Of a DNA stretch of 64,000 nucleotides, positions 21,860-55,694 are shown one piece after another. A program made the translations under genes and the position numbers. The number at the start of each line of letters is the position of its first letter. The stretch's first letter is position 1. Source of the DNA: Desulfosoma sp. (GTDB lineage Bacteria; Desulfobacterota; Syntrophobacteria; Syntrophobacterales; DSM-9756); assembly GCA_037481875.1 (NCBI GenBank), contig JBBFKY010000001.1:600510-664509 (forward strand). The letters run 5' to 3'. The notes below the pieces were generated by a model. The model made no database searches. It was not told where the DNA came from and worked only from the letters and a program-made list of their open reading frames with translations.

Positions 21860-22147
21860 GAGGAAGGCTCCTTCTTTCAGCGCGTTTTTCGGAAACCTTA
21901 GCATCCGCCTGCTACGTTGACAAGACACTCCTGACAACAGGAACTCTCAAGCGAATGGTCCGCCGTGCTGTCAGCATCTCCTGCGAAAAAGATCAATGGA
22001 CGGTCTGATTTTTTGTAAAGTCCAACCCGAATGCCGTATTGATCGTTAGAACGGGTTGGGTGGGTAGGGTTTTGAAGTTCAAGCTTCTTCCGCATAAAAG
22101 GGCGGAAGTGGAAACCAGAACAGGTGTCGGGCATTGAGGAGGCTCCA

Positions 22148-23497
22148 ATGGCGAGAGTTTTTATCAGCCCTTTGGGTACCAACAAGTATCTACCGTGTTA
22201 CTACGAAATTGACGGTCGAAGGTCGGCACGGCCGGTTAATTTTATTCAAGAAGCTCTTTTGGCCCACTGGTGTGTTTCATGGACCGCTGAGGATCGAATA
22301 CTCATCTTGTGTACAAGAGAAGCCGAGGAAAGAAATTGGCTGAATGGTGGCAACTTTGAAAAGGGTTTGCGGACGCGCATCGAAGAGCTGAATCTTCCCG
22401 CTCAACGCCAGATGCTGCCTATTCCCGACGGCAAAAACGAAACGGAAATCATGGATATTTTCATGATCCTTATGGAAGCTCTTAAGCCTCAGGACCAGGT
22501 TTACCTGGACGTCACCCATTCCTTTCGATCTCTTCCTCTACTCCAAACAGTAATCCTCAACTATGCCAAAGTGCTCAAGGACATCCGCGTGGAACGCATT
22601 GTGTACGGTGCCTTTGAAACCATGGGAACACTGAAGGAAGTCGAGCAGAGACCCGTAGAACAGCGAATCGCCCCCGTGTTTGACCTCACCCCCTACGACG
22701 CTCTCCTGGACTGGGCGAGAGCGGTTGATATTTTTCAGAAAGCCGGTCGTCCTCAGGAAATCAAGCGCCTTATAGGACGCAATCTTGGTGCTGTGTTCAA
22801 TAAGCGACAAGAGCAGGATCAAAAGAAACTGGCGTGCTCTATGTCCACCCTAGGCAATCAGCTAGAAAACCTGTGCCTTAATCTGTCCGCCGCTCGAGGT
22901 CCTCATGTGCTCAAAGCTCAATCTTTCGACGAACAACTGGACGCGGTCGAAAACCAGAGGCTGATTCCCCCGCTGACGCCCCTTTTGGAGATCCTTCGCC
23001 GCAAAGTGCAAAGATTCAAGGTTCAGAACGAAACGACCAAAGGCTTTGAAGCGGCGGCCTGGTGCTTGGAACATGAGCTGATTCCCCAGGCGTACGTTCT
23101 GCTTCGAGAAACCATTCTGAGCGCTCTTTGTCGGTGGGCAGGTCAGGACCCTATGAACGAGAAAATGCGGGAAAATTTCTGGAGCGCCCTTTTACATGTC
23201 GTGGCCACAGGCAAACCCGAAAAGGATTGGGAAGGTCTGCTTGCCCAAAAGCGGGACGAAGCCCTGCATGTTCTTAGGACTGGAGGTGAAGCGCTGAAGA
23301 CGCTTGCCAAAAAGTTTGAAGCTTTAAGGGATCGCAGAAATGATCTGATGCATGCAGGCTGGAAAACCGATGCAAAATCTGCTCCGAGCCTTCTTCAATT
23401 CCTTCAGAACGGAGGACTGGAATCCCTTCGTACCGCTTGGGAAGCCTTTGAGGCAGCGGTTCCTCCACTTTCTCGTGGTCATGGAAAAGGGCAATGA
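22148..23497 (+). CDS. csx2: Csx2/Csx1-type CARF-HEPN ribonuclease
   Basis: A 449-residue type III CRISPR accessory effector of the TM1812/Csx2 family. The CARF part (about residues 1-190) begins ARVFISPLGTNKY and holds the family signature YLDVTHSFRSLP at 119-130, which lies at the nucleotide pocket. The C-terminal HEPN part has the catalytic RxxxxH motif as RRNDLMH near residue 400. The known mechanism is activation by cyclic oligoadenylate from Cas10 and non-specific RNA cleavage. The ATG at 22148 follows GAGGAGG by six bases. The stop overlaps the next gene (ATGA). No cas gene lies between it and the left tRNA, so this pair forms its own transcript. Confidence 0.9.
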   Translation: MARVFISPLGTNKYLPCYYEIDGRRSARPVNFIQEALLAHWCVSWTAEDRILILCTREAEERNWLNGGNFEKGLRTRIEELNLPAQRQMLPIPDGKNETEIMDIFMILMEALKPQDQVYLDVTHSFRSLPLLQTVILNYAKVLKDIRVERIVYGAFETMGTLKEVEQRPVEQRIAPVFDLTPYDALLDWARAVDIFQKAGRPQEIKRLIGRNLGAVFNKRQEQDQKKLACSMSTLGNQLENLCLNLSAARGPHVLKAQSFDEQLDAVENQRLIPPLTPLLEILRRKVQRFKVQNETTKGFEAAAWCLEHELIPQAYVLLRETILSALCRWAGQDPMNEKMRENFWSALLHVVATGKPEKDWEGLLAQKRDEALHVLRTGGEALKTLAKKFEALRDRRNDLMHAGWKTDAKSAPSLLQFLQNGGLESLRTAWEAFEAAVPPLSRGHGKGQ

Positions 23498-23889
23498 TGC
23501 GACAAGCGTTTGTTCTGCTCTCACACCGGCTCACTCCAGATCAGGAAAACGACTTGACACAAACGTGGCAAGCCTCTCAGGTGCGTGTCATGCCCGAAGA
23601 ATTACAAAAGCTGTGGCAAGAAGTGCCCCCTGAAGCGGCTTCGGTTCGAGAATGGATTCAGCCTGTTTTGGAATGGTTGGCACAGGAAGCGGTTTCCGGC
23701 GATCTCGTCATCGTGCAAGGGGACTATGGAGCCACCTGTCTCACCGCATCATGGGCTTTGTCCAGAGGGCTCGTGCCGGTGTATGCCACCACAAACCGAG
23801 TCCTTGAGGAAACGATTCAACCAGACGGTAGTGTGCTTCAAAAGCGCATTTTTCGACACATTCGGTTTCGACGTTATGAGTTCGTGTAA
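23494..23889 (+). CDS. csx20: CRISPR-associated protein Csx20
   Basis: A 131-residue protein that matches the small Csx20 family: N-terminal AFVLLSHRLTPDQ, central LVIVQGDYGATCLTASWALSRGLVPVYATTNR, and C-terminal HIRFRRYEF. Csx20 is found with type III systems and has been suggested, from CARF-superfamily comparisons, to be a ring nuclease-like regulator that removes cyclic oligoadenylate. That role is inferred here. It overlaps csx2 by four bases, so effector and possible off-switch are made together. The 144 bases up to the convergent protease gene hold a weak GC-rich hairpin and no gene. Confidence 0.8.
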   Translation: MMRQAFVLLSHRLTPDQENDLTQTWQASQVRVMPEELQKLWQEVPPEAASVREWIQPVLEWLAQEAVSGDLVIVQGDYGATCLTASWALSRGLVPVYATTNRVLEETIQPDGSVLQKRIFRHIRFRRYEFV

Positions 23890-24033: not shown

Positions 24034-26166
24034 TTATCGATAGGTGAACGGAAACCATCTGGCGGGTTGATCGGCGACGGCTTCCACCACCTCCTGCCAA
24101 GAGGTTTTGGAAAGAAGCTCGGCAAAATGGGGCGTGTGAAGACGACCTTTGGCCACTTCTTCAAGGACCTTAAAAACCCCTTCCTCCAGCCACGACGTTA
24201 AAGCAAGTCCCTCTCGATACAGCCAGGCCGCGTGCAAGAGAGCCATAGGTTGTGCCGTGGAACCCAATTTTGTGCAAAATCGAAGCCCCTGTTCCCAGGC
24301 GATTTTCTTTTCTTGACGTGCATGAAGCCATCGTCCCACATTCCAAAGCCACAGTTGCCAAGGGTGTTCTGCCGGGGAACGGTAGAGCTGTTCGCGGCAC
24401 CACTTTTCGTAAACAGGCAGTCGAAAATCCGTCTCGGCGAGAAAGCGTGCCAAAGCTGCATGTTGGTAACGCTGAAGCCTTGCGGGGTTCACTTTATCGA
24501 GAGGAGATTCAATGTAGTTTTCGAGGGCCTCTTGAGCTTTGCCAACCTGATTGGCGTCTAGATAGGCATAGACGAGGTAGTGGTATTGTCGAAGACAATC
24601 CTTTTTGAATTCCTGGAGCCGCCATTCACCAAAGGCATTCCACGCCTTGGATACCGACTGAATAGAGTCCCGAAGGTAAAGGGGACCGCAAAAGCCGAAG
24701 TTTTGCGCGATGGTTCCATAAATTTTCCCCAAACTGGGCATTGCGGGTTTGAGGCCTTTGACGGCATGGCTTTCCCGAATGGATTCCAGATGGTCTTGAA
24801 TGTCCGTAAGCCATTCAGGAAGCTTCGCGTCAAAATGATAACGGCCATGGTATAAGGTAACAAAAAGCCGATTCCAAAAATCAGCCAAACGATGAATCCC
24901 TTCGAGATAAAGGGGAAGTTGTTGGGAAAAAGTGTCGCGGCAAAACTTAGCCCAACACAGCGCTTCTTCGGTATTCCCGCGTTGCCCTGCCACGGCCCAG
25001 AGAAGATGAGCCAGCCGAAAGGACGTAAGAAAGGATTGACGGGCCAGATCTTGGACGTCCTCAAAACTTATAGGATTCAGCAAAGTTTCGACCCAGCCGA
25101 GGTCTTCAGAGGCATCGGAGAAAAGCCTTTCCAGGGAATCCGTAAAACTTTCTGCATCTCGAGGGTTTTGTAAAATTTCTTTCACCGCATGAGCGTACAA
25201 TCCGGAAAAACCGCTCCACCCTCGAAGGCGCGGATCCAGGGAACGAAGTCCCAGGGCCAGCTCTTGGGGCGACCCAAGCTTTTCGAAATCTTTGGCAAAC
25301 CCTTTTCCCGTCACATCCCCTTTAAGTTCCCACAGGCATTCTGCAGCCTGGATATTCCTCACTTGCTCAACCCGCAATCCTTGTGCCGACGCCTGCGTTT
25401 CCGCCAATTCCAAAGGGCATATCAAGGTCTGAAAGCCTAAGGCCGCCAAGGCCTTCGCTTTTTCCCTGACAAAACCCACAGGGAGCACACACCCCTGTTC
25501 GTCCACATCCCCACTTGCAGCCACATGAAGGCCTCTTCGACCACCCATAGCGCCCAAGTGAGCTTCCCAGGCTCCCAGATAAGCCGGCAAAGCCCAGGAT
25601 GGTCCCTCAATGCATGGGCTCGGTTCAGACGGAGGAAGCAAAGGAATAAAAACCATGGCTTTCCCCGTTCTGTGCCTAAAGAGCTCATGAGCCCTTACCA
25701 GAGCACCTTGTGCAGCGGCATCCAGTCGGTCCATGATCCAGGAGGGGCTATGAAATTGCGTGCTAGAGGGAAGGGCTCCTAAAAGAGCCCAAAACACGTG
25801 CGCTTTCTTTCCCTGAACCGTCGGGAGAGCCACCAAAGCCCATTGAGCTTGCAGCACGTAGGCCCAGTCCAGGCAAAGGCCCACGTCATGCGGTGTCATG
25901 AGCCGCTGCAAGACCTGTAAAAAACTATGGGCTCCTTTTTCTTCTCGTCGTCCCAAGGCGGCGGCGAAAAAGGCGGTCAGAAGAAAACGAGACCAAGCTG
26001 GATCCAGACCTGTGTGCAAGATTTTTAAAATATATTCGGCTTTTTGCGGCTTTTCAGGCCAACGAAAATGCCATGGATTTGTCCACTGAAACTTTCGTTC
26101 TTCAAGGCAGCCCCATTCATGCCACACACGCATTTCTTCCAACGACCAGGAGGGAGAAACATTCAT
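24034..26166 (-). CDS. Lon-type Ser/Lys protease domain fused to helical (TPR-like) repeats
   Basis: A 710-residue protein, last of the cad1 operon. Residues about 165-285 match the Lon (S16) protease domain: GPSW with candidate nucleophile Ser190, ASGDVDEQGCVLPVGFVREKAKAL with candidate catalytic Lys236, and the following GFQTLICP strand. Ser and Lys are 46 residues apart (43 in E. coli Lon). There is no Walker A/B, so no AAA+ unfoldase. The N-terminal 140 residues are helical. The C-terminal 400 or so residues are helical, with TPR-like parts such as YLDANQVGKAQEALENYI. I see no CARF or SAVED pocket. By context it would cut the adjacent anti-sigma-like protein, as CalpL cuts CalpT; this is inference. 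The start overlaps the upstream stop (ATGA). Confidence 0.7.
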   Translation of the reverse strand: MNVSPSWSLEEMRVWHEWGCLEERKFQWTNPWHFRWPEKPQKAEYILKILHTGLDPAWSRFLLTAFFAAALGRREEKGAHSFLQVLQRLMTPHDVGLCLDWAYVLQAQWALVALPTVQGKKAHVFWALLGALPSSTQFHSPSWIMDRLDAAAQGALVRAHELFRHRTGKAMVFIPLLPPSEPSPCIEGPSWALPAYLGAWEAHLGAMGGRRGLHVAASGDVDEQGCVLPVGFVREKAKALAALGFQTLICPLELAETQASAQGLRVEQVRNIQAAECLWELKGDVTGKGFAKDFEKLGSPQELALGLRSLDPRLRGWSGFSGLYAHAVKEILQNPRDAESFTDSLERLFSDASEDLGWVETLLNPISFEDVQDLARQSFLTSFRLAHLLWAVAGQRGNTEEALCWAKFCRDTFSQQLPLYLEGIHRLADFWNRLFVTLYHGRYHFDAKLPEWLTDIQDHLESIRESHAVKGLKPAMPSLGKIYGTIAQNFGFCGPLYLRDSIQSVSKAWNAFGEWRLQEFKKDCLRQYHYLVYAYLDANQVGKAQEALENYIESPLDKVNPARLQRYQHAALARFLAETDFRLPVYEKWCREQLYRSPAEHPWQLWLWNVGRWLHARQEKKIAWEQGLRFCTKLGSTAQPMALLHAAWLYREGLALTSWLEEGVFKVLEEVAKGRLHTPHFAELLSKTSWQEVVEAVADQPARWFPFTYR

Positions 26167-27443
26167 CGGTCTACAACCAAGAGTCGAAGATCCTGAAGTA
26201 ACGGCTGATATTTTTTCGAGACAGGAAAGAGCAATCGAAAATAGCCCGTGGATCCATCCAGAGCCGATTCCAGGGGCTCGAGTTCACCATCCGAAACAAT
26301 CCATAAACCGTAGATGGAAGCTACATCTGAAAGGGGTTCAAGAATCCTTCCTCCCACGAGAACCCCTTTCGCACTGGATTGAAGGACGGTGATTTCGGCG
26401 CCCGCAGGTTTCAGAACGGGTGCAGATTCGTCACTGAGGCGAAGGAGTCTGACTGGGACGGTTTCACGGGCCGGGGCGGCCGCCAGAGGCAGGACTTCTT
26501 CGACCCACGGCGCCGTGAGCAGTGTTTTCACAGTAGGTTGGCTGTCTGGATCCAGCTGAAGCCATGGACTGAAGGTTTTTCGAAAGGTTTTCCTATCCCG
26601 AAAAAAGGAGTCCAAGGTCCAGGCCGTCGGGTTTTCTTGAAAAGCCATTAAAGTTTCCAGAGTGCGTTGAGCGAAAAAAGAAGCCACCTCTACCTCGAGA
26701 CGCTGAAACGCCGAGAGGAACGATGCGAAAGGGGATTGCGTCGAGATTTCATCGCAGAGGACAGCCTGGGATAGGTTTTGGGCTTTTTGGTGAATGACGT
26801 TCAAAAGGGCGTTGGACACCGTGAAGATGGGATCGCTCACATGCTCTTTCAAGCAGGCGAAGGTGTTCCACGGTTCGACAAAAATTCCGGGCAGAACCTC
26901 TACATCGCCGGGACCGGCGAGATCGGGAAAGTCATGGACAAGAGCGACTCGAAAAGCCGATGCCGTCTCTTCTACGGACTCGAGGACCAGCACCAAAGGA
27001 GCGTTGTAGAATCGGGATCTAGGGCCCCAGCCGGCCAAATCGGGTTGAAGGCGAACCACGTCTCCAGGCCCTGGGGATTTTGACGCGTTTACGGCGGCCG
27101 GTTTGAAGTCCTTTGTGCGATCCGGATCGAAAATGTTGAGGCAAATTCCTGAGACCCCATCGCAGCGCGGATCTTTTCCTGAGAAGGCGGGCGCTTCGCC
27201 TGCGTCCTGAGCGATCCGGTGGCTTGGAGTTCCACAGAGAGCCTTGCCTTCGCTTTTGTGTGCACGGTTTCGAAGGAGGGCATCGCGCTCTTGGTCACAC
27301 CAGGGACACGCGCTCAGGTGGCGCTGAAGAGCCTCGGGTATGGGGTCGGCAAGAAGAACGGCTTCGGGTGGACAACCCCGAGCTCTTAGGGCTTCCTCCC
27401 AAGCCAAGCGCAGAACGGCGGCACTGTGCGAGCTTTGGGGCAT
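26163..27443 (-). CDS. Anti-sigma-like protein: zinc-finger N-terminus and MazF/PemK-like region
   Basis: A 426-residue protein from the ATG at 27443 (AAAGG ten bases upstream); an ATG at 27470 overlapping the sigma gene would add nine residues. Near the N-terminus, ALQRHLSACPWCDQE has the HxxxCxxC pattern of zinc-finger anti-sigma factors. A segment about 125 residues in, GDVVRL followed by APLVLVLESV and FRVALVHDFPD, reads like the first strands of a MazF/PemK fold. The remainder is unassigned. In the type III CalpL/CalpT/CalpS system the cleaved partner is a MazF homologue that holds an ECF sigma factor, so this gene is the likely CalpT counterpart. That assignment is inferred from gene order and weak motifs. 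Confidence 0.55.
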   Translation of the reverse strand: MPQSSHSAAVLRLAWEEALRARGCPPEAVLLADPIPEALQRHLSACPWCDQERDALLRNRAHKSEGKALCGTPSHRIAQDAGEAPAFSGKDPRCDGVSGICLNIFDPDRTKDFKPAAVNASKSPGPGDVVRLQPDLAGWGPRSRFYNAPLVLVLESVEETASAFRVALVHDFPDLAGPGDVEVLPGIFVEPWNTFACLKEHVSDPIFTVSNALLNVIHQKAQNLSQAVLCDEISTQSPFASFLSAFQRLEVEVASFFAQRTLETLMAFQENPTAWTLDSFFRDRKTFRKTFSPWLQLDPDSQPTVKTLLTAPWVEEVLPLAAAPARETVPVRLLRLSDESAPVLKPAGAEITVLQSSAKGVLVGGRILEPLSDVASIYGLWIVSDGELEPLESALDGSTGYFRLLFPVSKKYQPLLQDLRLLVVDR

Positions 27444-27456
27444 AGGCACTATACCT

Positions 27457-28578
27457 TTAGAGAGATGCATCTGAATCCGTAGAACCTTTCATCCATGAAC
27501 TACGGCACTGCCAGGCCGATTTACAAGCTTTCAGGATTTCTTCGAGAAACTCCGCAGCCAGATCATGATCTTCGTCCCAGGAAGACAAACCCGACCAGAG
27601 CAGGCAAAAATCCTTGATGCGAAGAATAAGTTGCGTGAGAAGATACCTGGCGCCGGCAGCTCCTCGATAGCCTGTTTCTCGGGCGATGTCCGCTAATGTC
27701 CAGCGCATGGCGTAGTAGGCGTAGAAAACGAAGCGCTCTCGATCATCCCAGTCGGCGATCAGTTTCTGAGCGAGACGTGGCAAGTCTTGGCGCAAAAGTT
27801 CCTTTTCTTGCGACCCTTCGACGGAAACCTCAAAGTCGAGAGGAGATGAGTCATTTTCGTTTTCGGAACTCAAGTCGGAAAACAGCACTTCCCGCTCCGA
27901 CGGAGGCATGGGCAGGTGCGCCATGAGGTACCGAGTCAGTTCGCGCACGGGAACCCAACATGGTTTTCCGAGACGTCGAACGGCTTCGTGCCAAAAAGAG
28001 CAGGCTACATGAACCACCTTTTCTTTGGTCAAACCTTCGGGGTTCAAACGCAAAGAGGCTTCAGGAGGCGGCCACAGGTGATAATTTTCTGAATGCAGGA
28101 CGGCCGGATCGTCTTGCAAGGCTTCTTTCAAGGGCTCCTGAGAACACGCATAAGAGGCATGGCCGCCCTTTATGTCATATTGCACCTTGTCATGGTTATG
28201 AAGGCATTGGCGAAGTCGTCGATACAAGGCCTTGCCCGGACTTATCTGTTGGGTTCTGGAAAGGTCCAGCAAATGGCGCGTGTAACGATGCGCCACAAAA
28301 GCGGCAAGGCGATGGGCTCCTTGATCGTAAAGCGATGCGAAGGCGTATCGCTCCTCCCAGGCATCCGCTTGCTGATTGGCGTAGAGCCACAGGGTGTTCA
28401 CCATGGCCTGAATGGATGAGGTGCCTCGCTGTGGATAGTCCTGATGGGGAATGCCGTTGGAATCCGGAAGCAGACTATGCGGGATGGCTTTTCTTCTGAC
28501 CTGGTTGAGTACGATGCATGCGGCCCGTTCCAGGACGGGGTGGCATTGCGGGGATGAGAGCCAATCCTTCCAGTTCAT
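27457..28578 (-). CDS. Sigma-70-family (ECF-like) transcription factor
   Basis: A 373-residue protein. Residues about 265-325 (WDDRERFVFYAYYAMRWTLADIARETGYRGAAGARYLLTQL) have the layout of sigma region 4: an ER-V start, a TLADIA first helix and a GYRGAAGARYLL recognition helix. Residues about 75-130 (YAFASLYDQGAHRLAAFVAHRYTR) could be region 2, but this is weaker. A 100-residue linker and a charged 45-residue C-terminal tail are unusual for ECF sigma factors. The start overlaps the stop of the upstream gene by four bases (ATGA). The proposed role is transcription activation once freed from the anti-sigma-like partner. Target promoters are unknown. Confidence 0.6.
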   Translation of the reverse strand: MNWKDWLSSPQCHPVLERAACIVLNQVRRKAIPHSLLPDSNGIPHQDYPQRGTSSIQAMVNTLWLYANQQADAWEERYAFASLYDQGAHRLAAFVAHRYTRHLLDLSRTQQISPGKALYRRLRQCLHNHDKVQYDIKGGHASYACSQEPLKEALQDDPAVLHSENYHLWPPPEASLRLNPEGLTKEKVVHVACSFWHEAVRRLGKPCWVPVRELTRYLMAHLPMPPSEREVLFSDLSSENENDSSPLDFEVSVEGSQEKELLRQDLPRLAQKLIADWDDRERFVFYAYYAMRWTLADIARETGYRGAAGARYLLTQLILRIKDFCLLWSGLSSWDEDHDLAAEFLEEILKACKSAWQCRSSWMKGSTDSDASL

Positions 28579-29165
28579 GGACCTTGTACCGGCTCAAGAC
28601 ACGTTTCAGGCACTTTACCCCAAAAGCTCAGTGGTTTCCAAAAGGCGGGATCCGATGGAAGCGGAAATCGAAAAGCTTCAATGAGGTAGCTTCGGCGATC
28701 CATGACCTTGCCCGTGATTTCCAAGGTACAGCCCTGGCGGATGAAGCGAGCGGCCATTCGGCCTTTGGTGGAGCAGGGGCAGACCTCGACGGCCATGGGA
28801 TGCGTGATCCTGAGGACAAATATAGGGTGTGTGCCGAAAGGATGTCGTTGACGTTCCGGGAAAAAGAACGTCTGTTTGAGAAGTTCTCGATCGGAGGCCC
28901 CACCGAAAAGCATGCGCTCTTCCCAATACATAGGCGACAGCCGTCGTAGGGCTGCGCCCAGGACCTCCCATAGTGAGGGTGGCTTTTTCACAGGAGGGTT
29001 TTCCTGTTCGGCTTGGCGCATGTCGGAACCCACCCTAATGAAGGTACAAGCTCCTTGTCTATCCAGCCATCCTATCTCTCCACCACGATATTGGTTAGAC
29101 CATGAAAGAAGACAAATCAAGAGAGAAACCACTAGGCATGCTAGCCTGGACAGCACTTGGCACAT
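28575..29165 (-). CDS. Unknown protein of the cad1-sigma operon
   Basis: I do not recognise this protein. From the ATG at 29165 it has 196 residues, with a hydrophobic N-terminal stretch (LACLVVSLLICLLSWS) that could be a membrane anchor. From the ATG at 29021, which has AGGGTGGG upstream, it would have 148 residues and be soluble. The core block HPIFVLRITHPMAVEVCPCSTKG, followed by FIRQGCTLEITGKVMDRRSYLIEAF, alternates beta strands in a way that faintly recalls MazF/PemK toxins. It lies 35 bases after the Nudix gene and overlaps the sigma gene by four bases. It may be a toxin, a target of the protease, or an analogue of Csx31 in type III-E. Confidence 0.55.
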   Translation of the reverse strand: MCQVLSRLACLVVSLLICLLSWSNQYRGGEIGWLDRQGACTFIRVGSDMRQAEQENPPVKKPPSLWEVLGAALRRLSPMYWEERMLFGGASDRELLKQTFFFPERQRHPFGTHPIFVLRITHPMAVEVCPCSTKGRMAARFIRQGCTLEITGKVMDRRSYLIEAFRFPLPSDPAFWKPLSFWGKVPETCLEPVQGP

Positions 29166-29200
29166 GGGTTGAGTTTGAGGCGAGCGATAAGAAAATCAGG

Positions 29201-29797
29201 TTAGATGAGTTGCAGTGCGAGGCGGGACCAAAGCTCCAGGGGACGGTGGTGCACCTGTCTAAGAGGGATCCATTGAAACTCGTGCAGTTCGGTACCTGGC
29301 CGAAGGGCCTTGGGCGTCAAAACCTGCATGCGAAAGACGAGTCCAAGGTGAACGAGACCCACTGAGGATTCTTCCTCATTAATGATTCCCTTAAAGGTGA
29401 GTTGGCAATGTTCGGGCAGGGTCGTAAACTCTTCGGAAAGCTCGCGGTACAGACCTCGCTCCAGTTGGGAAGCTAATTCCCCCCTTCCTGCCTCGGCATC
29501 TTCACGAATCACATGGCCTCCCAAACCCACTGAGTCCCGGCCGTGGAGCCTTTTTTCCGAGCCTTTTCGCCGGTAACAACCCACCCGGCCATGGATGTCC
29601 AACATGACCACGTAAGGGATGATCTGCTTGTACTGCTGGTCCTGTTCTACTTTCTCTCTGGGTTTGTAGCCGTAGCCTGCGGCCGCGATCACCTCAAGGC
29701 ATTGCTCATAGCGCAGAGAAAGAGCGGTTCGCCTTTGGAGCCAGGGCTTAGGAAGAGCGTGCCGGGGTACACACAAGACATGTTCTTGTAAACTCAT
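29201..29797 (-). CDS. Nudix hydrolase
   Basis: A 198-residue protein with a long-loop Nudix box: GLGGHVIRED, then ERGLYRELSEEF, giving the REUxEE metal-binding helix. Upstream, IIPYVVMLDIHGRVGCYRRKG is the usual beta-strand lead-in. Such enzymes cleave nucleoside diphosphate-X compounds. Its start overlaps the stop of cad1 (ATGA), so the two are produced together. Since Cad1 turns ATP into ITP, this enzyme may hydrolyse ITP to IMP, or degrade another product of the response; this is inferred from position only. Confidence 0.85.
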   Translation of the reverse strand: MSLQEHVLCVPRHALPKPWLQRRTALSLRYEQCLEVIAAAGYGYKPREKVEQDQQYKQIIPYVVMLDIHGRVGCYRRKGSEKRLHGRDSVGLGGHVIREDAEAGRGELASQLERGLYRELSEEFTTLPEHCQLTFKGIINEEESSVGLVHLGLVFRMQVLTPKALRPGTELHEFQWIPLRQVHHRPLELWSRLALQLI

Positions 29798-32019
29798 GGG
29801 AGCAATCCTATGTCGAGCAGCTGAAGGATCTTATTTTCAGCCTCTCGTAGAAGTTTGTGCCGCGTGGGGGCGGTGGTGAAAGCAGCTTTGAAGGCATTTC
29901 GGATGAGCAGCAGAATGTCCCAAAGGCTCAAACCGTTAGCGGTAAGCCGCCCTGCGCGGTGGTATTCGGTTGAAAAGTCGGTTCGTGAGATGCCAGGGTT
30001 GTCCGTGTTGACGGTCACCCGTAAACCCTGTTTTAGGTAGTTCAAGAGAGGGTAATGGGGGAGGGATGCCGTATTGGGCATGTGGGTGTCTCGAAAGCCT
30101 ACGATTTGGCAGTTGCTAGAGGGGCACATCTCCAGTGCGATGCGCCGATCCCGGAGGCGTTCTAGAAGGTTTGGATTCTCATGAAGAGTCAGACCGTGAC
30201 CAATGCGTTCGGCGTTGAGATGGTACACTGCCTGCCAGACACTGGAAGCGTCGGCAGTTTCGCCCGCGTGAATGGTGGCGTGCAAACACTTTTCCATGAG
30301 AGGCAAAAAAGCCTCGCGTACCTTAGCTGGTGCCAGAACTCTTTCATTTCCGGCCAAATCGAAGCCAGCCAGCATTTGGGAGAGCAGATCTTCACGCTCT
30401 AAAACTTTTTTCGCTAAAGCCACATTTTTCTGCAGAGCCGACAAATCCCGATGGCGGCTACCGATAAGAATTAGAACTGTGGATTGAGAGCCCTCTCGAG
30501 TCAGTTCTTCAGCAATGATCTGAAGCACCTGGAGGGCATTTAGTCCTCCCCGCGAGTAATTCTTCGGTGAACAGCGCACTTCCAGGTGTAGCACGTTGTG
30601 TTCTCGTGCTTTACGGCCCAAGATTCGGCACGTTGCTCTTAGGGTTTCTTCGCTCTGTAGGAGGGCGGATCCCTGAAGATCGCCTAAGGCCTCGTAAGCT
30701 TCGTAGCCTATGCCGACAAAATTTTTTTCCTCGAGGTAGGTTCCGTAAATCATTTCCTCCAGAACATGAGGGCTCGATTCAAAAAGGAGAATAAAAGCGG
30801 CTACAGGAAGCGGTTCCGGAACGCCAGGGACGGCTTGCCGTAGCGTTTTCCAGTTCAACCCTTTGCTCAGATGGATGGGATCCATCGTATTGAGACGCGA
30901 TCTCCAAGCATTAAGCCAAGGGTCCAGTTGGTGCCGGTATTTTTGGATGTTTTCCCCAACGGATGAGGCCACTTCGATCATTTCCTTGACCGTTAAAGCT
31001 CCGCCTAAATGGCAGTGCAGTTCCGCTTTGGGGAGACGGCGAAGAAGTGAAATTTCTGCTTCAACTTGGTGGGGCTCTCTATTGAGGCCGACGAGGGTCT
31101 GCTTGAGCTTCTGAATAGTTCGGGGCGGGAGGCTGTAGAGGGCGAGAAAATTGGCCGAGGTTTCTGCTTGGATGATGTGGCTGGCGTGGTTAGCCGCGAG
31201 GTTTGAGGCCGCCTGGATACGCTTTTCCAGAGCATCAAGGAGTGGGGTTTCTTTTATAGGTAAGCAGTAATCCTGCCAAAAAACAAAGGATTCCAGCGCC
31301 TTCAGCAGGTTCGTGTGGATAAAGTCTTCCAGCGGCCTTTGCCAGGTTTCCTGGTAGTCCATGAGAGGGTTAGGAGTGTGTCGGGCCACCACTACAGGTG
31401 TTACTGCATCGGCAATAGGGGCGGGAAGAGGTTTACAGAAGTCGTGGATCTGCAGTTTCTTGAAGAGAGGCAGCTTATCGTCACGGCCGACCACGTGAAC
31501 CAGGGCTCGGCACCCGAAAAAGGCGGCTGCCGTTTGCATGTCGCTGCTCATGGTCTTTCGGCCTCCCGTGAGCGACAAGAGCAGAGAACCATTGGGGCCT
31601 GCCTCCTTAGTACCACATAGGACCACCTGATGAATGGCTTCACTCATTTGACGGCATTCGGTCAAGGATGAGAGGTCCTGAAGGCCGTGAACCCTTACCA
31701 CACGGCATCGAAGCCGGTTGGATGCCGTGATGTTGAGCCAGTTTTTCAAGATGTCAAGGGCATTGATGATTTCCGGTCCATCTGTGGTGATAATCCAAAG
31801 ACTTTGGATGGGCTTAATATCGTATTGGACGCGAAGAGACTCGAGTTCCTTTCGGTTAGGGTGGTGTTTATAGAGGTCGACCAAATCGGGGTTGGTCCAT
31901 CCCAGAATTTCTGGAACAATTTCCCAGTTTTTTCCAAGTGTTGTGACGAGAACGTGGTTCATCGAAGTCATGTCACTTTTGAGGGTAGTAGTCTTGGTTA
32001 TAAACGTGAGGTTGTTCAT
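29794..32019 (-). CDS. cad1: Cad1: CARF domain fused to adenosine deaminase
   Basis: A 741-residue fusion. The CARF part (about 20-210) has HVLVTTLGKNWEIVPEILGW and the pocket loop SLTGGRKTM at 149-157. A helical linker follows. The deaminase part starts near 325 with KAELHCHLGG (zinc ligands His335 and His337) and continues with IHAGE (catalytic Glu), ERIGHG and VNTDNPG (zinc Asp), all intact. CRISPR-associated adenosine deaminases of this type bind cyclic oligoadenylate and convert ATP to ITP, stopping growth of infected cells. It opens the six-gene operon. The start at 32019 lacks a strong ribosome site; ATGs at 31971 and 31962, closer to the CARF start, are possible. Confidence 0.9.
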   Translation of the reverse strand: MNNLTFITKTTTLKSDMTSMNHVLVTTLGKNWEIVPEILGWTNPDLVDLYKHHPNRKELESLRVQYDIKPIQSLWIITTDGPEIINALDILKNWLNITASNRLRCRVVRVHGLQDLSSLTECRQMSEAIHQVVLCGTKEAGPNGSLLLSLTGGRKTMSSDMQTAAAFFGCRALVHVVGRDDKLPLFKKLQIHDFCKPLPAPIADAVTPVVVARHTPNPLMDYQETWQRPLEDFIHTNLLKALESFVFWQDYCLPIKETPLLDALEKRIQAASNLAANHASHIIQAETSANFLALYSLPPRTIQKLKQTLVGLNREPHQVEAEISLLRRLPKAELHCHLGGALTVKEMIEVASSVGENIQKYRHQLDPWLNAWRSRLNTMDPIHLSKGLNWKTLRQAVPGVPEPLPVAAFILLFESSPHVLEEMIYGTYLEEKNFVGIGYEAYEALGDLQGSALLQSEETLRATCRILGRKAREHNVLHLEVRCSPKNYSRGGLNALQVLQIIAEELTREGSQSTVLILIGSRHRDLSALQKNVALAKKVLEREDLLSQMLAGFDLAGNERVLAPAKVREAFLPLMEKCLHATIHAGETADASSVWQAVYHLNAERIGHGLTLHENPNLLERLRDRRIALEMCPSSNCQIVGFRDTHMPNTASLPHYPLLNYLKQGLRVTVNTDNPGISRTDFSTEYHRAGRLTANGLSLWDILLLIRNAFKAAFTTAPTRHKLLREAENKILQLLDIGLLP

Positions 32020-32203: not shown

Positions 32204-32239
32204 GTCTCAATCCCCTCAAATCGGGGCCTGCCTTCGGAC
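32204..32239 (-). CRISPR. Solitary CRISPR repeat left of the array
   Basis: A perfect 36-base copy of the array repeat, 582 bases away from the first repeat of the main array. It lies between the cad1 promoter region and the phage-derived block, at the old (leader-distal) end of the locus. It has the same orientation as the array. Confidence 0.95.
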
Positions 32240-32477
32240 CCTAACGGCTTGTAGTCCTCGGTGCGGGTCAGGTATTGGCCACCTCGCAACAGGTTTAGAT
32301 CGATGGCCAGGCGGTGCCTGTGCAGGCTTGGGGGTACCCATAAGGGCACCTGGGATCTCTTTAGGCGTCGCCCAGAGTGACTTCGTAGCCAAGCTCTATG
32401 GCCTTGTCAATGAGGCTGGCCACCATTCGGGCAAAGATGCTCTGATGGACTCGAAGCGAGGCACTGTTACCAGGCAT
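32240..32477 (-). pseudogene. Remnant of phage M15-type endolysin (D,D/L,D-peptidase)
   Basis: From an ATG at 32477 with AGGAGG upstream, the minus strand reads IFARMVASLIDKAIELGYEVTLGDA, then a stop at 32361-32363. In another frame it continues SLHRHRLAIDLNL and then GGQYLTRTEDYKPLG, ending exactly at the CRISPR repeat. These two blocks match phage peptidoglycan peptidases of the M15/VanY type (the GYEVTxGDA and HxxRLAIDLN motifs). The gene has an in-frame stop, a frameshift and a missing 3' end. Its start overlaps the small secreted protein gene, as in phage lysis cassettes. Confidence 0.7.
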
Positions 32478-32712
32478 TCCACTTCCTCCTGTCCTTGAGA
32501 CCTTTATTGTCGTCCTCGAAAAGAGGCATGATCACCAAGTTGTTCTTTGAGCCTCGATATCCAAAGTAGGTGTTCCCTCGCTCAAGGTCATGCATGATGA
32601 ACGGGTTCCTTTGGCCTTGGGGCACGTAGAAAAAGTGCGGGTTCCCTCGCTCGTCGAAAACAACAACGAATGAAAGCATCAGTCCGAGGATTAGGCCTGT
32701 AAAGCGCTTCAT
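32467..32712 (-). CDS. Small secreted protein, probably of phage origin
   Basis: An 81-residue protein with a clear signal peptide or anchor (MKRFTGLILGLMLSFVVVF) followed by a polar, aromatic-rich mature part (HFFYVPQGQRNPF, GNTYFGYRG). AAAGGAGG precedes the ATG by seven bases, an unusually strong ribosome site. A GGGGCCGC-loop-GCGGCCCC hairpin lies just upstream at about 32738-32758. It overlaps the endolysin remnant by 11 bases. The frame is intact. The function is unknown; a place in a phage lysis or membrane cassette is likely. Confidence 0.65.
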   Translation of the reverse strand: MKRFTGLILGLMLSFVVVFDERGNPHFFYVPQGQRNPFIMHDLERGNTYFGYRGSKNNLVIMPLFEDDNKGLKDRRKWNAW

Positions 32713-32821
32713 GGTTTCCCTCCTTTGTTCCTTTGTTGGGGCCGCACGGGGCGGCCCCGCTGTTGGGTTTATCTTAGAGCCCGAATCGAGCGGACCCGCT
32801 CCCTAGACCCGCCATCGAACG

Positions 32822-35800
32822 GTCTCAATCCCCTCAAATCGGGGCCAGCTTTCGGACGTAGCTCGGCTCTTGCGGGTCCATGTCCGAACAGTCTATGTCT
32901 TAATCCCCTCAAATCGGGGCCAGCTTTCGGACTTACCACTCGGTCCAAGCTGAGGTCAAAGACACTTGCGTCTCAATCCCCTCAAATCGGGGCCTGCCTT
33001 CGGACTAAATATGCTCAAGCCATGAAAAAAGCTGGGGTTGAGTCTCAATCCCCTCAAATCGGGGCCTGCCTTCGGACAACAGGCTCATCGTCGAGCCTGT
33101 TACAAGCTCGCAAGTCTCAATCCCCTCAAATCGGGGCCTGCCTTCGGACCAAGACTTCTAGACCATGAATTCGGCCAAGCAGCAGGTCTCAATCCCCTCA
33201 AATCGGGGCCTGCCTTCGGACTACCCACGGGGGCCTTATGCACTACCGCCGCCGCGGGTCTCAATCCCCTCAAATCGGGGCCTGCCTTCGGACACCACAA
33301 AGCCCCCGGGCAACCCCCGGGGGCTTTGGTCTCAATCCCCTCAAATCGGGGCCTGCCTTCGGACACAAACATCTCTGTAGCGTTCGGCGACAACGTCTGT
33401 CTCAATCCCCTCAAATCGGGGCCTGCCTTCGGACAGGGACATATCCGAGCAGGTCCCCCAGGGCCGATGAGTCTCAATCCCCTCAAATCGGGGCCTGCCT
33501 TCGGACGAGGGAACCCAACAGCCCGCCCGAGGCCACCACAAGTCTCAATCCCCTCAAATCGGGGCCTGCCTTCGGACCTATGAAGATCACATTCGTAAAA
33601 AGAAGGCAAGGGTGTCTCAATCCCCTCAAATCGGGGCCTGCCTTCGGACCTATCAAATGCTCGGGCTCGGGGCTTTGGCATGAAGGTCTCAATCCCCTCA
33701 AATCGGGGCCTGCCTTCGGACGTATTGAAAAAATGGGGGAGTTCCGAGCCATACCAAGTCTCAATCCCCTCAAATCGGGGCCTGCCTTCGGACCTATTGC
33801 GCCTTTGTGCGCTCGGGCTGCGTCATCTGGTCTCAATCCCCTCAAATCGGGGCCTGCCTTCGGACCTGGTTAGAGTCTTCCGCACTAACGCCGCTGGGGA
33901 AGTCTCAATCCCCTCAAATCGGGGCCTGCCTTCGGACGAGGGAACCCAACAGCCCGCCCGAGGCCACCACAAGTCTCAATCCCCTCAAATCGGGGCCTAC
34001 CTTCGGACAAGACTTGACAATGGCTTTGTCAAGTTGCCTGCAAGTCTCAATCCCCTCAAATCGGGGCCTGCCTTCGGACCTTCTAAATGCACAATGGCAC
34101 AAGCACATAGTGCTTGTCTCAATCCCCTCAAATCGGGGCCTGCCTTCGGACCAACGTTGTAAAGACCCTCCTAATCGATCTTATGAGTCTCAATCCCCTC
34201 AAATCGGGGCCTGCCTTCGGACCAAAAGACGTACCAGCTACATATGGAGACTGGTTATGGTCTCAATCCCCTCAAATCGGGGCCTGCCTTCGGACGAGAC
34301 CAAGTTTCAGAAAATACCGTGCGCGAATGGGTCTCAATCCCCTCAAATCGGGGCCTGCCTTCGGACGTCAAGTTTTGTGAAAGAGTTCTTGGGCTTTCTC
34401 AGTCTCAATCCCCTCAAATCGGGGCCTGCCTTCGGACACGAAAAGCTTGCCCGGGAGGTGCGGATTTGGTCCGGTCTCAATCCCCTCAAATCGGGGCCTG
34501 CCTTCGGACCTAATGAGTGGCCCGACGTAAAACTTACCCTCCGCGAGTCTCAATCCCCTCAAATCGGGGCCTGCCTTCGGACAAAGAAAGCAAATTACTT
34601 CAGATATGCGAAACCATGTCTCAATCCCCTCAAATCGGGGCCTGCCTTCGGACAAAGCCTGCACAAGCAGCGCTTGGCCATTGACCTGGTCTCAATCCCC
34701 TCAAATCGGGGCCTGCCTTCGGACCAAGGGAACCCAACCACAAGCCCGCCCCGAGGCCAAGTCTCAATCCCCTCAAATCGGGGCCTGCCTTCGGACGCAA
34801 AGCGGCAAATGCCCGCTTCCACGACACCTACGAGTCTCAATCCCCTCAAATCGGGGCCTGCCTTCGGACCACCTAGGCGAGGGACCCCCTCGCCTGGAGT
34901 GGAAAAGTCTCAATCCCCTCAAATCGGGGCCTGCCTTCGGACTCTTCATGCGAAAGAAACTTGAAACTCCACCTAGGCGTCTCAATCCCCTCAAATCGGG
35001 GCCTGCCTTCGGACTATGCAGAGAATAGCAAAACTCACCAAGATTAGAGGGTCTCAATCCCCTCAAATCGGGGCCTGCCTTCGGACGAAATTTCCGCTGC
35101 CGTAAAGTCAACCCCAGGCCAAGGGTCTCAATCCCCTCAAATCGGGGCCTGCCTTCGGACTCATCCTCAACACGGCGTGGTCCGGATCTTCCGGACTGTC
35201 TCAATCCCCTCAAATCGGGGCCTGCCTTCGGACCAAGAATGGAGGTTCCGACTATGCAGAGAATAGCAAGTCTCAATCCCCTCAAATCGGGGCCTGCCTT
35301 CGGACGCTACGTCTCTCCACAACAAGCAAGCCAATTAATAAGTCTCAATCCCCTCAAATCGGGGCCTGCCTTCGGACCCACCCGCGTACAGGCACAAAGC
35401 TCAGAACTTCCGGCGTCTCAATCCCCTCAAATCGGGGCCTGCCTTCGGACAACAAAGCCCGCCCGAGGCCACTCCAAGCCGCCGCCGTCTCAATCCCCTC
35501 AAATCGGGGCCTGCCTTCGGACGAAAGGAAGGCCCAAGAAACCAGGAAGGCGCTGGTGTCTCAATCCCCTCAAATCGGGGCCTGCCTTCGGACCTGATGG
35601 GATCACGGCCTTGTGGGCCACCCGCGAAGGTCTCAATCCCCTCAAATCGGGGCCTGCCTTCGGACCTGATGGGATCACGGCCTTGTGGGCCACCCGCGAA
35701 GGTCTCAATCCCCTCAAATCGGGGCCTGCCTTCGGACCCTTCCTGGCGCCCTCTGGGCGCTTTGCGACCACCGTCTCAATCCCCTCAAATCGGGGCCTGC

Positions 35801-38800
35801 CTTCGGACACAAGCCCCCGGGTAACCCCAGGGGCTTTGATCTTTGTCTCAATCCCCTCAAATCGGGGCCTGCCTTCGGACGTCGCTTTGCGACCACCTCG
35901 CCTCTAATACCCTGCGTCTCAATCCCCTCAAATCGGGGCCTGCCTTCGGACTGAAATATTAACCCTAACCCACGGCGGCGTTGCACAGTCTCAATCCCCT
36001 CAAATCGGGGCCTGCCTTCGGACCCACAAAAAGCCCAAGCAGGGAGCGGGAAACAAGTACGTCTCAATCCCCTCAAATCGGGGCCTGCCTTCGGACCAAG
36101 GACGATGCAGAAGAGGTTCTCTACTCAGCAGGGTCTCAATCCCCTCAAATCGGGGCCTGCCTTCGGACCACAACATTGGCGCCGTGGAGAGGGTTGGCGC
36201 CGCTGTCTCAATCCCCTCAAATCGGGGCCTGCCTTCGGACGCACGCCTACGTGCGCCTTGACGGAGGGGTCGGCCTGTCTCAATCCCCTCAAATCGGGGC
36301 CTGCCTTCGGACATTGCGGCGACGGGGACATGTTCCGGCCCGAGAAGTCTCAATCCCCTCAAATCGGGGCCTGCCTTCGGACACAAAGGGACCTTGGAGT
36401 ATGAAAACGGTTGCTGAAGTCTCAATCCCCTCAAATCGGGGCCTGCCTTCGGACGCAAAGCGGCAAATGCCCGCTTCCACGACACCTACGAGTCTCAATC
36501 CCCTCAAATCGGGGCCTGCCTTCGGACACACGTAATTTGGGCAATCGGCACCAAGGCAGAAAAGTCTCAATCCCCTCAAATCGGGGCCTGCCTTCGGACA
36601 AATCAGGAAAGGAGGGCACTATGCTTGACATTGGTCTCAATCCCCTCAAATCGGGGCCTGCCTTCGGACCCCTTGGGGCTTTCCTCTTTTAGTCCCTCGT
36701 AAAGGTCTCAATCCCCTCAAATCGGGGCCTGCCTTCGGACCCGAACTGACCGGCAACGTCCCTGGTACTTACCAGGGGAGTCTCAATCCCCTCAAATCGG
36801 GGCCTGCCTTCGGACCCCACGTCCAGGACCTCGGCTGGGCAAAGTTCAAGGAGTCTCAATCCCCTCAAATCGGGGCCTGCCTTCGGACATGTTATGTTCT
36901 GTCTTTCAAGAGGAATGGTGGTTGTCTCAATCCCCTCAAATCGGGGCCTGCCTTCGGACCTAATATCTCAAGGCCAAGGCCTTAGCGCCTTGGCCTTTGT
37001 CTCAATCCCCTCAAATCGGGGCCTGCCTTCGGACTTTTCGTGGGCGGACAGGAGGGATGTTTCACTGTAGTCTCAATCCCCTCAAATCGGGGCCTGCCTT
37101 CGGACTATGAAGAAAAAGACCAGCGCCAACACCGCACAGGTCTCAATCCCCTCAAATCGGGGCCTGCCTTCGGACCTAGCCACAAAGTGGCCTGAAGCCA
37201 CCTTGTGCATGTCTCAATCCCCTCAAATCGGGGCCTGCCTTCGGACCATGAAAGACGACAGACTTTTCGGTCCGTATCGGACGTCTCAATCCCCTCAAAT
37301 CGGGGCCTGCCTTCGGACGAAAATACCGTGCGCGAGTGGCTTCAAAAGCCGCTTGTCTCAATCCCCTCAAATCGGGGCCTGCCTTCGGACCCGAGGCTCC
37401 TTCCCAACCTCCCGACCTGCTCCGAGGGTCTCAATCCCCTCAAATCGGGGCCTGCCTTCGGACTAGAATATCCAAAAAAGAAGCTCATCATTCAGGGATC
37501 CGTCTCAATCCCCTCAAATCGGGGCCTGCCTTCGGACCCCTTGAGGACCCTGCGGGTCCCGCGGTGCTTGTCAGGTCTCAATCCCCTCAAATCGGGGCCT
37601 GCCTTCGGACAACGCGTACTGCACGCCAAGCAACTAACCTGCCCAAGGTCTCAATCCCCTCAAATCGGGGCCTGCCTTCGGACCCAACAAGGCGCAAGCG
37701 AAGCTTCGGATGGCCGCTCGGTCTCAATCCCCTCAAATCGGGGCCTGCCTTCGGACGACCACGTGCCGACTGAAATTCCTCCGCAGGGGATCGTCTCAAT
37801 CCCCTCAAATCGGGGCCTGCCTTCGGACATCTCGGGCCAGATCAGCTTGCCTGGCAAACTCGCGTCTCAATCCCCTCAAATCGGGGCCTGCCTTCGGACA
37901 CTCGGATCTATCAGGTAACGTAATCCTGACCAAGGTCTCAATCCCCTCAAATCGGGGCCTGCCTTCGGACTTCACCTACAAGTCTATCGAGTTCGACGAA
38001 GATTTGGTCTCAATCCCCTCAAATCGGGGCCTGCCTTCGGACAGCGGATCGTGGCCCACCTGTGCCCGAAGCTGGAGGTCTCAATCCCCTCAAATCGGGG
38101 CCTGCCTTCGGACAGGGCGACCTCGGAGCCTAAGAGAAAGAAGGAACGGTCTCAATCCCCTCAAATCGGGGCCTGCCTTCGGACGCATCTATCGTCACCA
38201 AGACCACAGGATACTCACCGTCTCAATCCCCTCAAATCGGGGCCTGCCTTCGGACACCATGAGAGGCGAAATTATCGACACGTTAGTTCTGTCTCAATCC
38301 CCTCAAATCGGGGCCTGCCTTCGGACCATGCAGCTTACGGACTCGTGCGGATAACGCGCACTGTCTCAATCCCCTCAAATCGGGGCCTGCCTTCGGACAC
38401 ACCTAACACCACATTAGAGAGGAGTTAACCATGTCTCAATCCCCTCAAATCGGGGCCTGCCTTCGGACCGACGAGCTCAGAGCTCTTGCCGACAGGCAAG
38501 AGCTCCCGATGAGTCTCAATCCCCTCAAATCGGGGCCTGCCTTCGGACTATGGCTGCCTTGCTCTATCCCGAAACCGTCGAGGAGTCTCAATCCCCTCAA
38601 ATCGGGGCCTGCCTTCGGACAGTCTATGCCAACACAATAGGGCAAGAATGCCTACGTCTCAATCCCCTCAAATCGGGGCCTGCCTTCGGACACTATGTCT
38701 CCCAGGGGCTTTTCTTTTGGTGCGCCTGTCTCAATCCCCTCAAATCGGGGCCTGCCTTCGGACTTGCAGGCCTCCCGGCCTCTATTCCGGCCTGTCGGGT

Positions 38801-41800
38801 CTCAATCCCCTCAAATCGGGGCCTGCCTTCGGACTTCCAAAGATCAGCCCTAGTGTTGGCGCAAGCCAAGTCTCAATCCCCTCAAATCGGGGCCTGCCTT
38901 CGGACGATAGAGGTGCCTGACAGGCTCAAGTGGCCTGCGGGTCTCAATCCCCTCAAATCGGGGCCTGCCTTCGGACTCAAGGCAGCCATAAGGCGCCTTG
39001 TCCATCCAATGTCTCAATCCCCTCAAATCGGGGCCTGCCTTCGGACTTGAGACATGTTTTCAGGGTGCGGGTGCTTGGGGAATTTGTCTCAATCCCCTCA
39101 AATCGGGGCCTGCCTTCGGACACCAGCTTCTCACGACTAAAGAGGCCGCCAGGTTCGTCTCAATCCCCTCAAATCGGGGCCTGCCTTCGGACCAACAAAG
39201 TAAGTTGCTAGAAGGCTGTGGTGCAACAGTCTCAATCCCCTCAAATCGGGGCCTGCCTTCGGACTTTGTTAATCACGGCGATATCGAGATCCGGCTAAGT
39301 CTCAATCCCCTCAAATCGGGGCCTGCCTTCGGACTCAACCGTTCAGCTCTGATGTTGGCTTGCGCCAACGTCTCAATCCCCTCAAATCGGGGCCTGCCTT
39401 CGGACCTATGGAAAGAAAAGAAAAAGACTGGTTCTGGATCAGTCTCAATCCCCTCAAATCGGGGCCTGCCTTCGGACACAAGCCTGTAGACTAACCGCCT
39501 TGGGGTCCCGCAGTCTCAATCCCCTCAAATCGGGGCCTGCCTTCGGACTCAACCGTTCAGCTCTGATGTTGGCTTGCGCCAACGTCTCAATCCCCTCAAA
39601 TCGGGGCCTGCCTTCGGACCTATGGAAAGAAAAGAAAAAGACTGGTTCTGGATCAGTCTCAATCCCCTCAAATCGGGGCCTGCCTTCGGACACAAGCCTG
39701 TAGACTAACCGCCTTGGGGTCCCGCAGTCTCAATCCCCTCAAATCGGGGCCTGCCTTCGGACAGATTGTGGTTCCGTGGTAAGGTTGTCTGGTTCCAGTC
39801 TCAATCCCCTCAAATCGGGGCCTGCCTTCGGACGGAAGATTTGTGAACAGTCAGGAGAAGAGTCCGCTGGTCTCAATCCCCTCAAATCGGGGCCTGCCTT
39901 CGGACTCGAGGCCGTGGACCGCTGGCTCCAATGGCGCAACAGTCTCAATCCCCTCAAATCGGGGCCTGCCTTCGGACACAATGTTCAAGCTAAGGAAATG
40001 GCACTATGAGGATGTCTCAATCCCCTCAAATCGGGGCCTGCCTTCGGACCATCCGCGGTATGGCTTGGTGCGCATCTTGCGCACGTCTCAATCCCCTCAA
40101 ATCGGGGCCTGCCTTCGGACTTCAAATAACCAGCAAAGGAATCCTGAACCACGAACGTCTCAATCCCCTCAAATCGGGGCCTGCCTTCGGACGACAACGG
40201 ACCATGTGTCGACGTAGCCAAGGCCAAGTCTCAATCCCCTCAAATCGGGGCCTGCCTTCGGACGCACTTTACCGACTGCCGCCCCGAGCTTGCTTTGAGT
40301 CTCAATCCCCTCAAATCGGGGCCTGCCTTCGGACACATGCTCGATATAGACAACTGGACACGGTCCGAATGTCTCAATCCCCTCAAATCGGGGCCTGCCT
40401 TCGGACTATGAAGCTAATGATCCAAAAATCAAGCGAAAACTGTCTCAATCCCCTCAAATCGGGGCCTGCCTTCGGACACGAACCGAGTTCGTCCCAAGCG
40501 TTCACGGGATCGTCTCAATCCCCTCAAATCGGGGCCTGCCTTCGGACCTATGCTAGCGGTAGAATTTCCAAAAAAGAAGCTCCGTCTCAATCCCCTCAAA
40601 TCGGGGCCTGCCTTCGGACGTTGACGAGACTATGCTAGCGGTAGAATTTCCAAGTCTCAATCCCCTCAAATCGGGGCCTGCCTTCGGACCCAGCACTAGG
40701 TGACAACTTTGCAAAGGAGAAGAATTATGTCTCAATCCCCTCAAATCGGGGCCTGCCTTCGGACACGGCGCTTGTGGTGCCGTCTGCAAGCTTTGCTGGG
40801 TCTCAATCCCCTCAAATCGGGGCCTGCCTTCGGACATATGCGTGCGGGAAGAAGGCCTCAGACCGGCAATATGTCTCAATCCCCTCAAATCGGGGCCTGC
40901 CTTCGGACTCATCGCGTGGTATCCAGGTGACCCTGGAACCTACCGTCTCAATCCCCTCAAATCGGGGCCTGCCTTCGGACATTGCTATGCCGTAAAGGCA
41001 TGGCGATCACGGGCGGTCTCAATCCCCTCAAATCGGGGCCTGCCTTCGGACGCACTTGTTGGGGCGTGTTGCGCAACGGGTCAAGCAGTCTCAATCCCCT
41101 CAAATCGGGGCCTGCCTTCGGACAAAGGATGGAAGACACTCCCGGCAGAGGAAGCCCGGTCTCAATCCCCTCAAATCGGGGCCTGCCTTCGGACAGGATT
41201 TGGTTTGGAATGTCTGCCTGGATCAAGCCGTCTCAATCCCCTCAAATCGGGGCCTGCCTTCGGACTATGCAAAGTCAGACTTTAACGAGGTTGCTGTTAC
41301 GTCTCAATCCCCTCAAATCGGGGCCTGCCTTCGGACAAGCGGATTCGAGCATACAATATTTCACACGGAAAGTCTCAATCCCCTCAAATCGGGGCCTGCC
41401 TTCGGACATTGAGCATCGGCGGATTGAGGCAGACGAAGCATGGTCTCAATCCCCTCAAATCGGGGCCTGCCTTCGGACCTTATTCGATGTGCGCCGATGG
41501 AAAGACGAAGAGTTTGTCTCAATCCCCTCAAATCGGGGCCTGCCTTCGGACATTCATCAAAACAAACTTCTAAGCCAAGACAAGTGTCTCAATCCCCTCA
41601 AATCGGGGCCTGCCTTCGGACATACCACCAATTCTGACGTGTCCAAACCACTCTGAGTCTCAATCCCCTCAAATCGGGGCCTGCCTTCGGACCTACTACT
41701 CGCTGGATGCCCTTCGGGCCTTTGTTCTCGTCTCAATCCCCTCAAATCGGGGCCTGCCTTCGGACTTTTGTGCGTCCTATGCGCACTTGTTGGGGCGTGT

Positions 41801-55377: not shown

Positions 55378-55616
55378 GGTTGTGACTCCCTTGGAAAAGA
55401 CGTCGAAAATTTTTTCCACAGCGTTTGCTAGTTAAGTTCCACGGCCTCAAGATCGATCTTTACAAAGGAAGCTATGGCATGAACCGCGAAAGGCTCTTGA
55501 CACATGGTCACGAAAGCGGCCGCATCAAAACCCCGGGTGTCAAAAAAAGAGACCCTCCAATTCGGTCACCCCATGAAAAAATCCCATAAAGCCAAACTTG
55601 ACATTTTTTGCGGGTT

Positions 55617-55634
55617 TGTGAGAACGTTTTCACA
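55617..55634. promoter_or_regulatory. 18-bp palindromic operator candidate in the divergent cas promoter region
   Basis: TGTGAGAAC and GTTTTCACA form an inverted repeat with a single mismatch. The site lies between the divergent TPR-CAPP-cas1-cas2 and cas6-cas10-csm runs, 61 bases before the cas6 start. A TTGACA hexamer at 55598-55603 stands 17 bases before position 55621, so the palindrome covers the expected -10 region. The arms TGTGA/TCACA resemble CRP/FNR-family sites but with an eight-base centre. Confidence 0.5.
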
Positions 55635-55694
55635 ATTCCTTTTTTGCAAAACGCTTCTCGAAGGCCGTTAGGTGGAAATGAGGGAGAAAGCACC

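Follow-up and report, generated by a model that had tools for sequence, protein, structure and literature searches.

The window, a 64,000-nt stretch of DNA (G000:C1:600510-664509 of a 3.4-Mb assembly), holds, in this order, csx1 and csx20 on the plus strand, six genes on the minus strand, a CRISPR array, a minus-strand trio encoding Cas1, a PrimPol and a TPR protein, and a plus-strand run of cas6, cas10 and four further genes (Table 1). From its sequence the effector is read as type III-A. The array has an isolated first repeat, at 32204, eight duplicated spacers and a 214-nt stretch in tandem repeat at 39298-39725; the Cas1-PrimPol-TPR trio stays together in several relatives; and a separate 39-nt repeat occurs six times at 7896-8747, at a spacing of 72-211 nt.

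Table 1. Features of the window and of two further loci (L074, L078) discussed in the text
Feature	Coordinates	Strand	Basis and remarks
Csx1 (CARF2-HEPN)	22124..23497	+	PADLOC/profile; convergent with the cassette
Csx20	23494..23889	+	profile match
Lon-TPR protease, 710 aa	24034..26166	-	fold, profiles, dyad
Anti-sigma	26163..27440	-	zinc motif, MazF-fold domain, beta-rich domain at the C-terminus; frame open from 27470
Sigma-70/ECF-like sigma factor, 373 aa	27457..28578	-	TIGR02937
Unk196	28575..29021	-	alignment to relatives; ORF open from 29165
Nudix-like hydrolase	29201..29797	-	RELSEE motif, Cad1 neighbor
Cad1 (CARF5-adenosine deaminase), 741 aa	29794..32019	-	PADLOC, motifs
CRISPR array	32204..50446	.	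247 repeats of 36 bp, 245 spacers
Cas1	51161-52252	-	sequence reading
PrimPol (AEP-TOTE)	52290-53930	-	profile match
TPR protein	53977-55419	-	matches PADLOC TPR PDLC01172
Cas6, Cas10, four genes read as Csm2-Csm5	55608..63258	+	Cas6/Csm2-5 by position, sequence reading, BLAST to relatives
Cas10	56688-59222	+	HD and GGDD motifs
TPR-tailed protein, 726 aa	L074:12711-14891	-	end FTFNYY
TPR-tailed protein, 713 aa	L078:6981-9119	+	end LPFNYC; weak DUF3800 match, E 0.0066

The six minus-strand genes had been described in an initial annotation, and much of that description holds: all six ORFs lie on one strand at the coordinates given there, the 4-nt ATGA overlaps at 29794, 28575 and 26163 are present, and genes for a sigma factor, an anti-sigma with a zinc finger and a protease of the Lon type do stand beside Cad1 and Nudix in a type III-A locus. 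Two starts need comment. Homology of Unk196 to its relatives begins near codon 49; the Met there, at 29021, is the likely start rather than 29165, which places the gene ~179 bp after the Nudix gene. For the anti-sigma, 27440 is a more probable start than 27470.

The protease, Lon-TPR, divides into a Lon domain (residues ~108-282) and a helical TPR half (~287-708) that ends in FPFTYR. The Lon assignment draws on a sequence match to an archaeal Lon (E 9e-12), on a Ser190-Lys236 dyad kept in 26 of 26 relatives, and on a structure model (pLDDT 89.9) that aligns with Lon domains at Z ~19 and whose best Foldseek match is CalpL (7qda, E 9.6e-6). Residues 272-704 of the model are all helical, unlike the alpha/beta SAVED fold; neither the model nor a profile search revealed a CARF or SAVED domain, and matches to CARF-Lon and SAVED-Lon profiles are confined to the Lon segment. 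A SAVED, CARF or CHAT identity is less likely, given an all-helical C-terminal half and a protease that is a Lon. TPR profiles match several family members, and by structure the half resembles MalT domain III (Z 18.6) and Rap proteins; as helical repeats often score high, we take it as TPR-like and not as proof of a ligand, and the MalT and Rap similarity may reflect a common helical arrangement alone. The terminus FPF[ST]YR recurs in 22 of the 25 Lon-TPR sequences that reach the end, and the tail also terminates two other proteins, in L074 and L078. The L078 protein resembles by its domain description the TPR-DUF3800 proteins that occur in Cas12a2 loci (PMC10910872), differing in its type III setting and in a tail common with Lon-TPR; the L074 protein gave no DUF3800 match, resembles the L078 protein by eye, and is probably of the same type. 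Elsewhere, a 352-aa Lon-domain protein that lacks the TPR tail directly follows Csx20 (L085:9640-10698, plus strand).

The anti-sigma carries a predicted zinc motif, C33-x17-H51-x3-C55-x2-C58, of whose HxxxCxxC part the His and first Cys are present in 19 of the 19 family members covering the site and the last Cys in 18 of 19. No Pfam family matched the window protein, and zf-HC2 scores above cut-off in the L074 anti-sigma (E 8e-6). Residues 129-237 are modeled as a MazF fold (Z 9.7 over 101 residues), with a modest Foldseek match (E 3e-3) and a weak sequence relationship (hhalign probability 7.7%). The window sigma matches TIGR02937 weakly (E 0.0017), and this profile is found in 12 of 20 members of its family, at best with E 8e-9. 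Family-wide scans were needed here, single-protein Pfam scans being near-empty for sigma, anti-sigma and Unk196 alike. Among the folds that the initial annotation expected structure prediction to reveal, Lon emerged from the model, whereas the zinc finger and the sigma factor were recognized by sequence only. Unk196 is a small Cys-rich protein with a conserved CPC, a GC and one further Cys. It is dedicated to the cassette: it occurs in 13 of 317 genomes, and the cassette Lon is present in 13 of these 13. Its HPxFVL...VCPCSSK motif slightly recalls MazF, at an hhalign probability against MazF/PemK of 1.2% over 33 columns; a PDB sequence search with the anti-sigma or Unk196 returned nothing meaningful.

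These four genes, unk196-sigma-anti-sigma-Lon, constitute a core conserved in ~34 Desulfobacterota genomes. The figure counts distinct genomes and merges the 15 of 59 related genomes with Lon-TPR relatives (the window's own counted, one a fragment), 19 genome-contig loci with Lon-TPR, whose genomes overlap partly with the 59-genome set, and further members of the phylum. The gene order is kept in most loci, the exceptions being loci that have no recognized unk196 or sigma, such as L019, L078, L080 and L081. Counted apart is G005 (L029:6326-9583, plus strand), where unk196, sigma and anti-sigma are kept and the Lon gene has shrunk to a remnant coding for the last ~90 residues. In a full-length Lon-TPR search of 395 genomes housekeeping Lon matched almost everywhere, and we therefore counted a match only if it was of the cassette type (E <= 1e-70) and fitted the tail profile as well. 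No Lon-TPR relatives were found on the plasmids searched, nor in viral contigs queried with one short peptide pattern. Pairwise distances of the four core proteins correlate (r 0.81-0.96), a correlation that shared species history alone could produce. In a rough scan, promoter-like sites lie close upstream of unk196 in G012, G008, G014, L043 and G005, where few shuffles match them, while most other loci, the window included, are unremarkable (combined p 8e-4); the sites suggest that in these relatives the core forms an operon of its own. In the window region the promoter scan gave six sites versus 4.0 expected, with no promoter-like site at 9/12 in the gap between Nudix and Unk196.

Cad1, as the initial annotation named it, is secure: the protein is a CARF5-ADA (PADLOC E 4e-205) in a type III locus, with the HCH, HAGE and TDNP motifs intact. 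Its architecture and active-site motifs are those of known Cad1 (ATP to ITP), from which the present case differs in the Nudix gene that follows, as in most examined relatives, and in the association with a sigma/Lon cassette. The Nudix assignment is weak by profile, with the RELSEE motif kept; of 12 sampled loci, 8 have the gene next to cad1 and 4 showed none by BLAST, and the two genes also adjoin in the window, L017, L047 and L081. A Cad1 homologue studied in Science in 2025 reportedly pairs with a Nudix enzyme. The pair also occurs without the cassette, in L163-L165; the window is the only locus where it falls into the same predicted operon as the core. Cad1-Nudix is thus a separable pair, and the single six-gene operon proposed earlier gives way to a four-gene core set off in the window by a ~179-bp gap and, in several relatives, by promoter-like sites before it; all six genes occur in this order in the window only, the last four being conserved together elsewhere. 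The proposed link between Cad1 and the sigma/Lon set stands at the level of genomes, and one shared transcript lacks statistical support. Among 395 genomes, 18 have Lon-TPR, 22 have Cad1 and 10 have both; Cad1 is found in 10 of the 18 Lon-TPR genomes versus 12 of the 377 others (Fisher p 1e-9) and, among 89 genomes with a Csm1-type Cas10, in 7 of 11 with Lon-TPR versus 7 of 78 without (p 1e-4), p values that ignore kinship, the lineage effect having been checked roughly; the ten genomes span seven taxonomic families. The two genes lie within ~12 kb of each other in the window, L017, L047 and L081 and in genomes G373 and G211.

The nearest known system is CalpL/T/S, which the initial annotation had named: there too one type III locus encodes a Lon protease, a MazF-fold anti-sigma (CRISPR-T/CalpT is MazF-like; PMC9704534) and a sigma factor, the last, ECF-like here, in the same operon. 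CalpL, however, has a C-terminal cA4-binding SAVED domain where Lon-TPR has its helical half, and the present cassette adds a zinc anti-sigma motif and the unk196 gene, CalpT being likened by its description. The CASP/Craspase system of type III-E (Csx29, Csx30, Csx31 and CASP-sigma) likewise combines a TPR-bearing protease, a predicted inhibitor, a sigma factor and a conserved fourth gene, but its protease is a CHAT rather than a Lon and its effector is Cas7-11 rather than Cas10 with Csm/Cmr; Csx30 and Csx31 are compared by description only. CARF-Lon and SAVED-Lon are alike in the Lon domain in some members and differ in their sensor domains, which find no match here. Three points go beyond the initial annotation: the membership of Unk196 in the core, a TPR half where SAVED or CARF would be expected, and a MazF fold inside the anti-sigma.

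We posit that the four-gene core is a type III CRISPR-linked transcription switch, similar to CalpL/T/S with another input module, a reading to which we assign a probability of roughly two in three. At rest, the zinc/MazF-fold anti-sigma would hold the sigma factor and Lon-TPR would be idle. Upon infection, a type III signal would reach the TPR half, the Lon domain would then cut the anti-sigma, and the sigma factor thus set free would redirect transcription. Unk196 would serve as a dedicated fourth part, perhaps a regulatory one, and Cad1 and Nudix would form an arm of their own, driven by cA4 and often found alongside the switch. The parallels with CalpL/T/S and Csx29/Csx30/CASP-sigma make it probable that Lon-TPR cuts the anti-sigma and so releases the sigma factor; we infer this cleavage and release, together with the trigger and the regulon, and how anti-sigma and sigma touch and where the cut falls we can only guess. 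A more ambitious version, in which the protease-released sigma switch is free of CARF and SAVED, the TPR half is a new type of receiver shared with a DUF3800-type protein, and the switch is functionally coupled to ATP depletion by Cad1-Nudix, we advance tentatively, as somewhat short of an even bet.

We favor a trigger that depends on cA4, bound directly or via a partner. That no cOA pocket was identified weighs against this reading. The GGDD motif is present in 19 of the 19 Cas10 ORFs examined, some of them truncated, and a gene for Csx20, a family with a characterized cA4 ring nuclease (PMC12409355), lies near the Lon-TPR cassette in ~15 loci; these observations make cA4 the leading trigger, though the TPR half might just as well make contact with the Cas complex. 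Such contact is the main alternative: as in Craspase, the TPR half would dock on the Csm/Cmr complex, and binding of target RNA rather than of a nucleotide would activate Lon. In type III-E, the TPR-CHAT protease Csx29, complexed with Cas7-11, cleaves the sigma-inhibiting Csx30 (PMC10028731), and the lack of a recognized CARF or SAVED domain in Lon-TPR is in line with docking, as is the tail shared with DUF3800-like proteins in two loci, which suggests a common partner. Yet the Cas10s examined keep GGDD, the cA4 components Csx1, Csx20 and Cad1 surround the cassette, and, because the effector subtype seems to vary among loci, a single docking surface would have to have persisted through that variation. 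We regard docking as unlikely, if a serious contender.

The MazF fold of the anti-sigma raises another option, that the cut liberates an active MazF-type RNase instead of a sigma factor, much as a toxin role was first proposed for CRISPR-T (PMC9704534). In our alignment reading, however, the strand matching MazF RPxVVLS has N-P-P rather than Arg-Pro, and the Thr/Ser past the next strand is not conserved, which makes MazF catalysis doubtful; the zinc motif and the neighboring sigma factor favor an anti-sigma role, and an active toxin is accordingly improbable.

A general sigma/anti-sigma/Lon stress module could also merely travel with defense islands. Related unk196-sigma-anti-sigma-Lon cassettes adjoin curli-like genes at L083:8464-13645 (minus strand) and L084:6762-11736 (plus strand); no cas gene was seen beside either, no Csm1-type Cas10 was found in either genome, and the sigma/anti-sigma/Lon part is therefore not intrinsically CRISPR-bound. 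The Lons of these cassettes, though, have a different C-terminal half, without the TPR tail. Among the ~34 TPR-tailed cassettes, by contrast, 25 stand near cas genes or an array, and the remaining nine are on contigs shorter than ~12 kb or at contig ends. The initial annotation had held that wide occurrence of the downstream genes away from CRISPR loci would count against it; two cassette relatives do lie away from cas genes, both with the altered Lon, and a mere traveling module strikes us as a poor explanation for the TPR-tailed family.

The least probable option is the metabolic coupling suggested by the initial annotation, with ITP, IMP or falling ATP from Cad1 and Nudix as the trigger of protease and sigma factor: the association across seven families and the proximity of the two genes described above fit it, but 8 of the 18 Lon-TPR genomes gave no Cad1 match, Cad1-Nudix also occurs without the cassette, and a common type III niche could account for the association.

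A 2025 classification lists hardly any type III cOA sensors other than CARF and SAVED domains (PMC12669027), and the open-access literature searched, with subscription papers and bioRxiv mostly outside its scope, held no description matching a Lon-TPR sigma system. A Lon protease with a TPR half where CARF or SAVED would sit suggests another input route. Because of the Cad1 association, it can be tested whether ATP depletion and the transcriptional response act together. The four-gene set looks like an alarm that reprograms gene expression during infection, without a known alarm-sensing domain; if this reading is true, it would add a further architecture, besides CalpL/T/S and the III-E CASP system, that links CRISPR detection to gene regulation by anti-sigma proteolysis.
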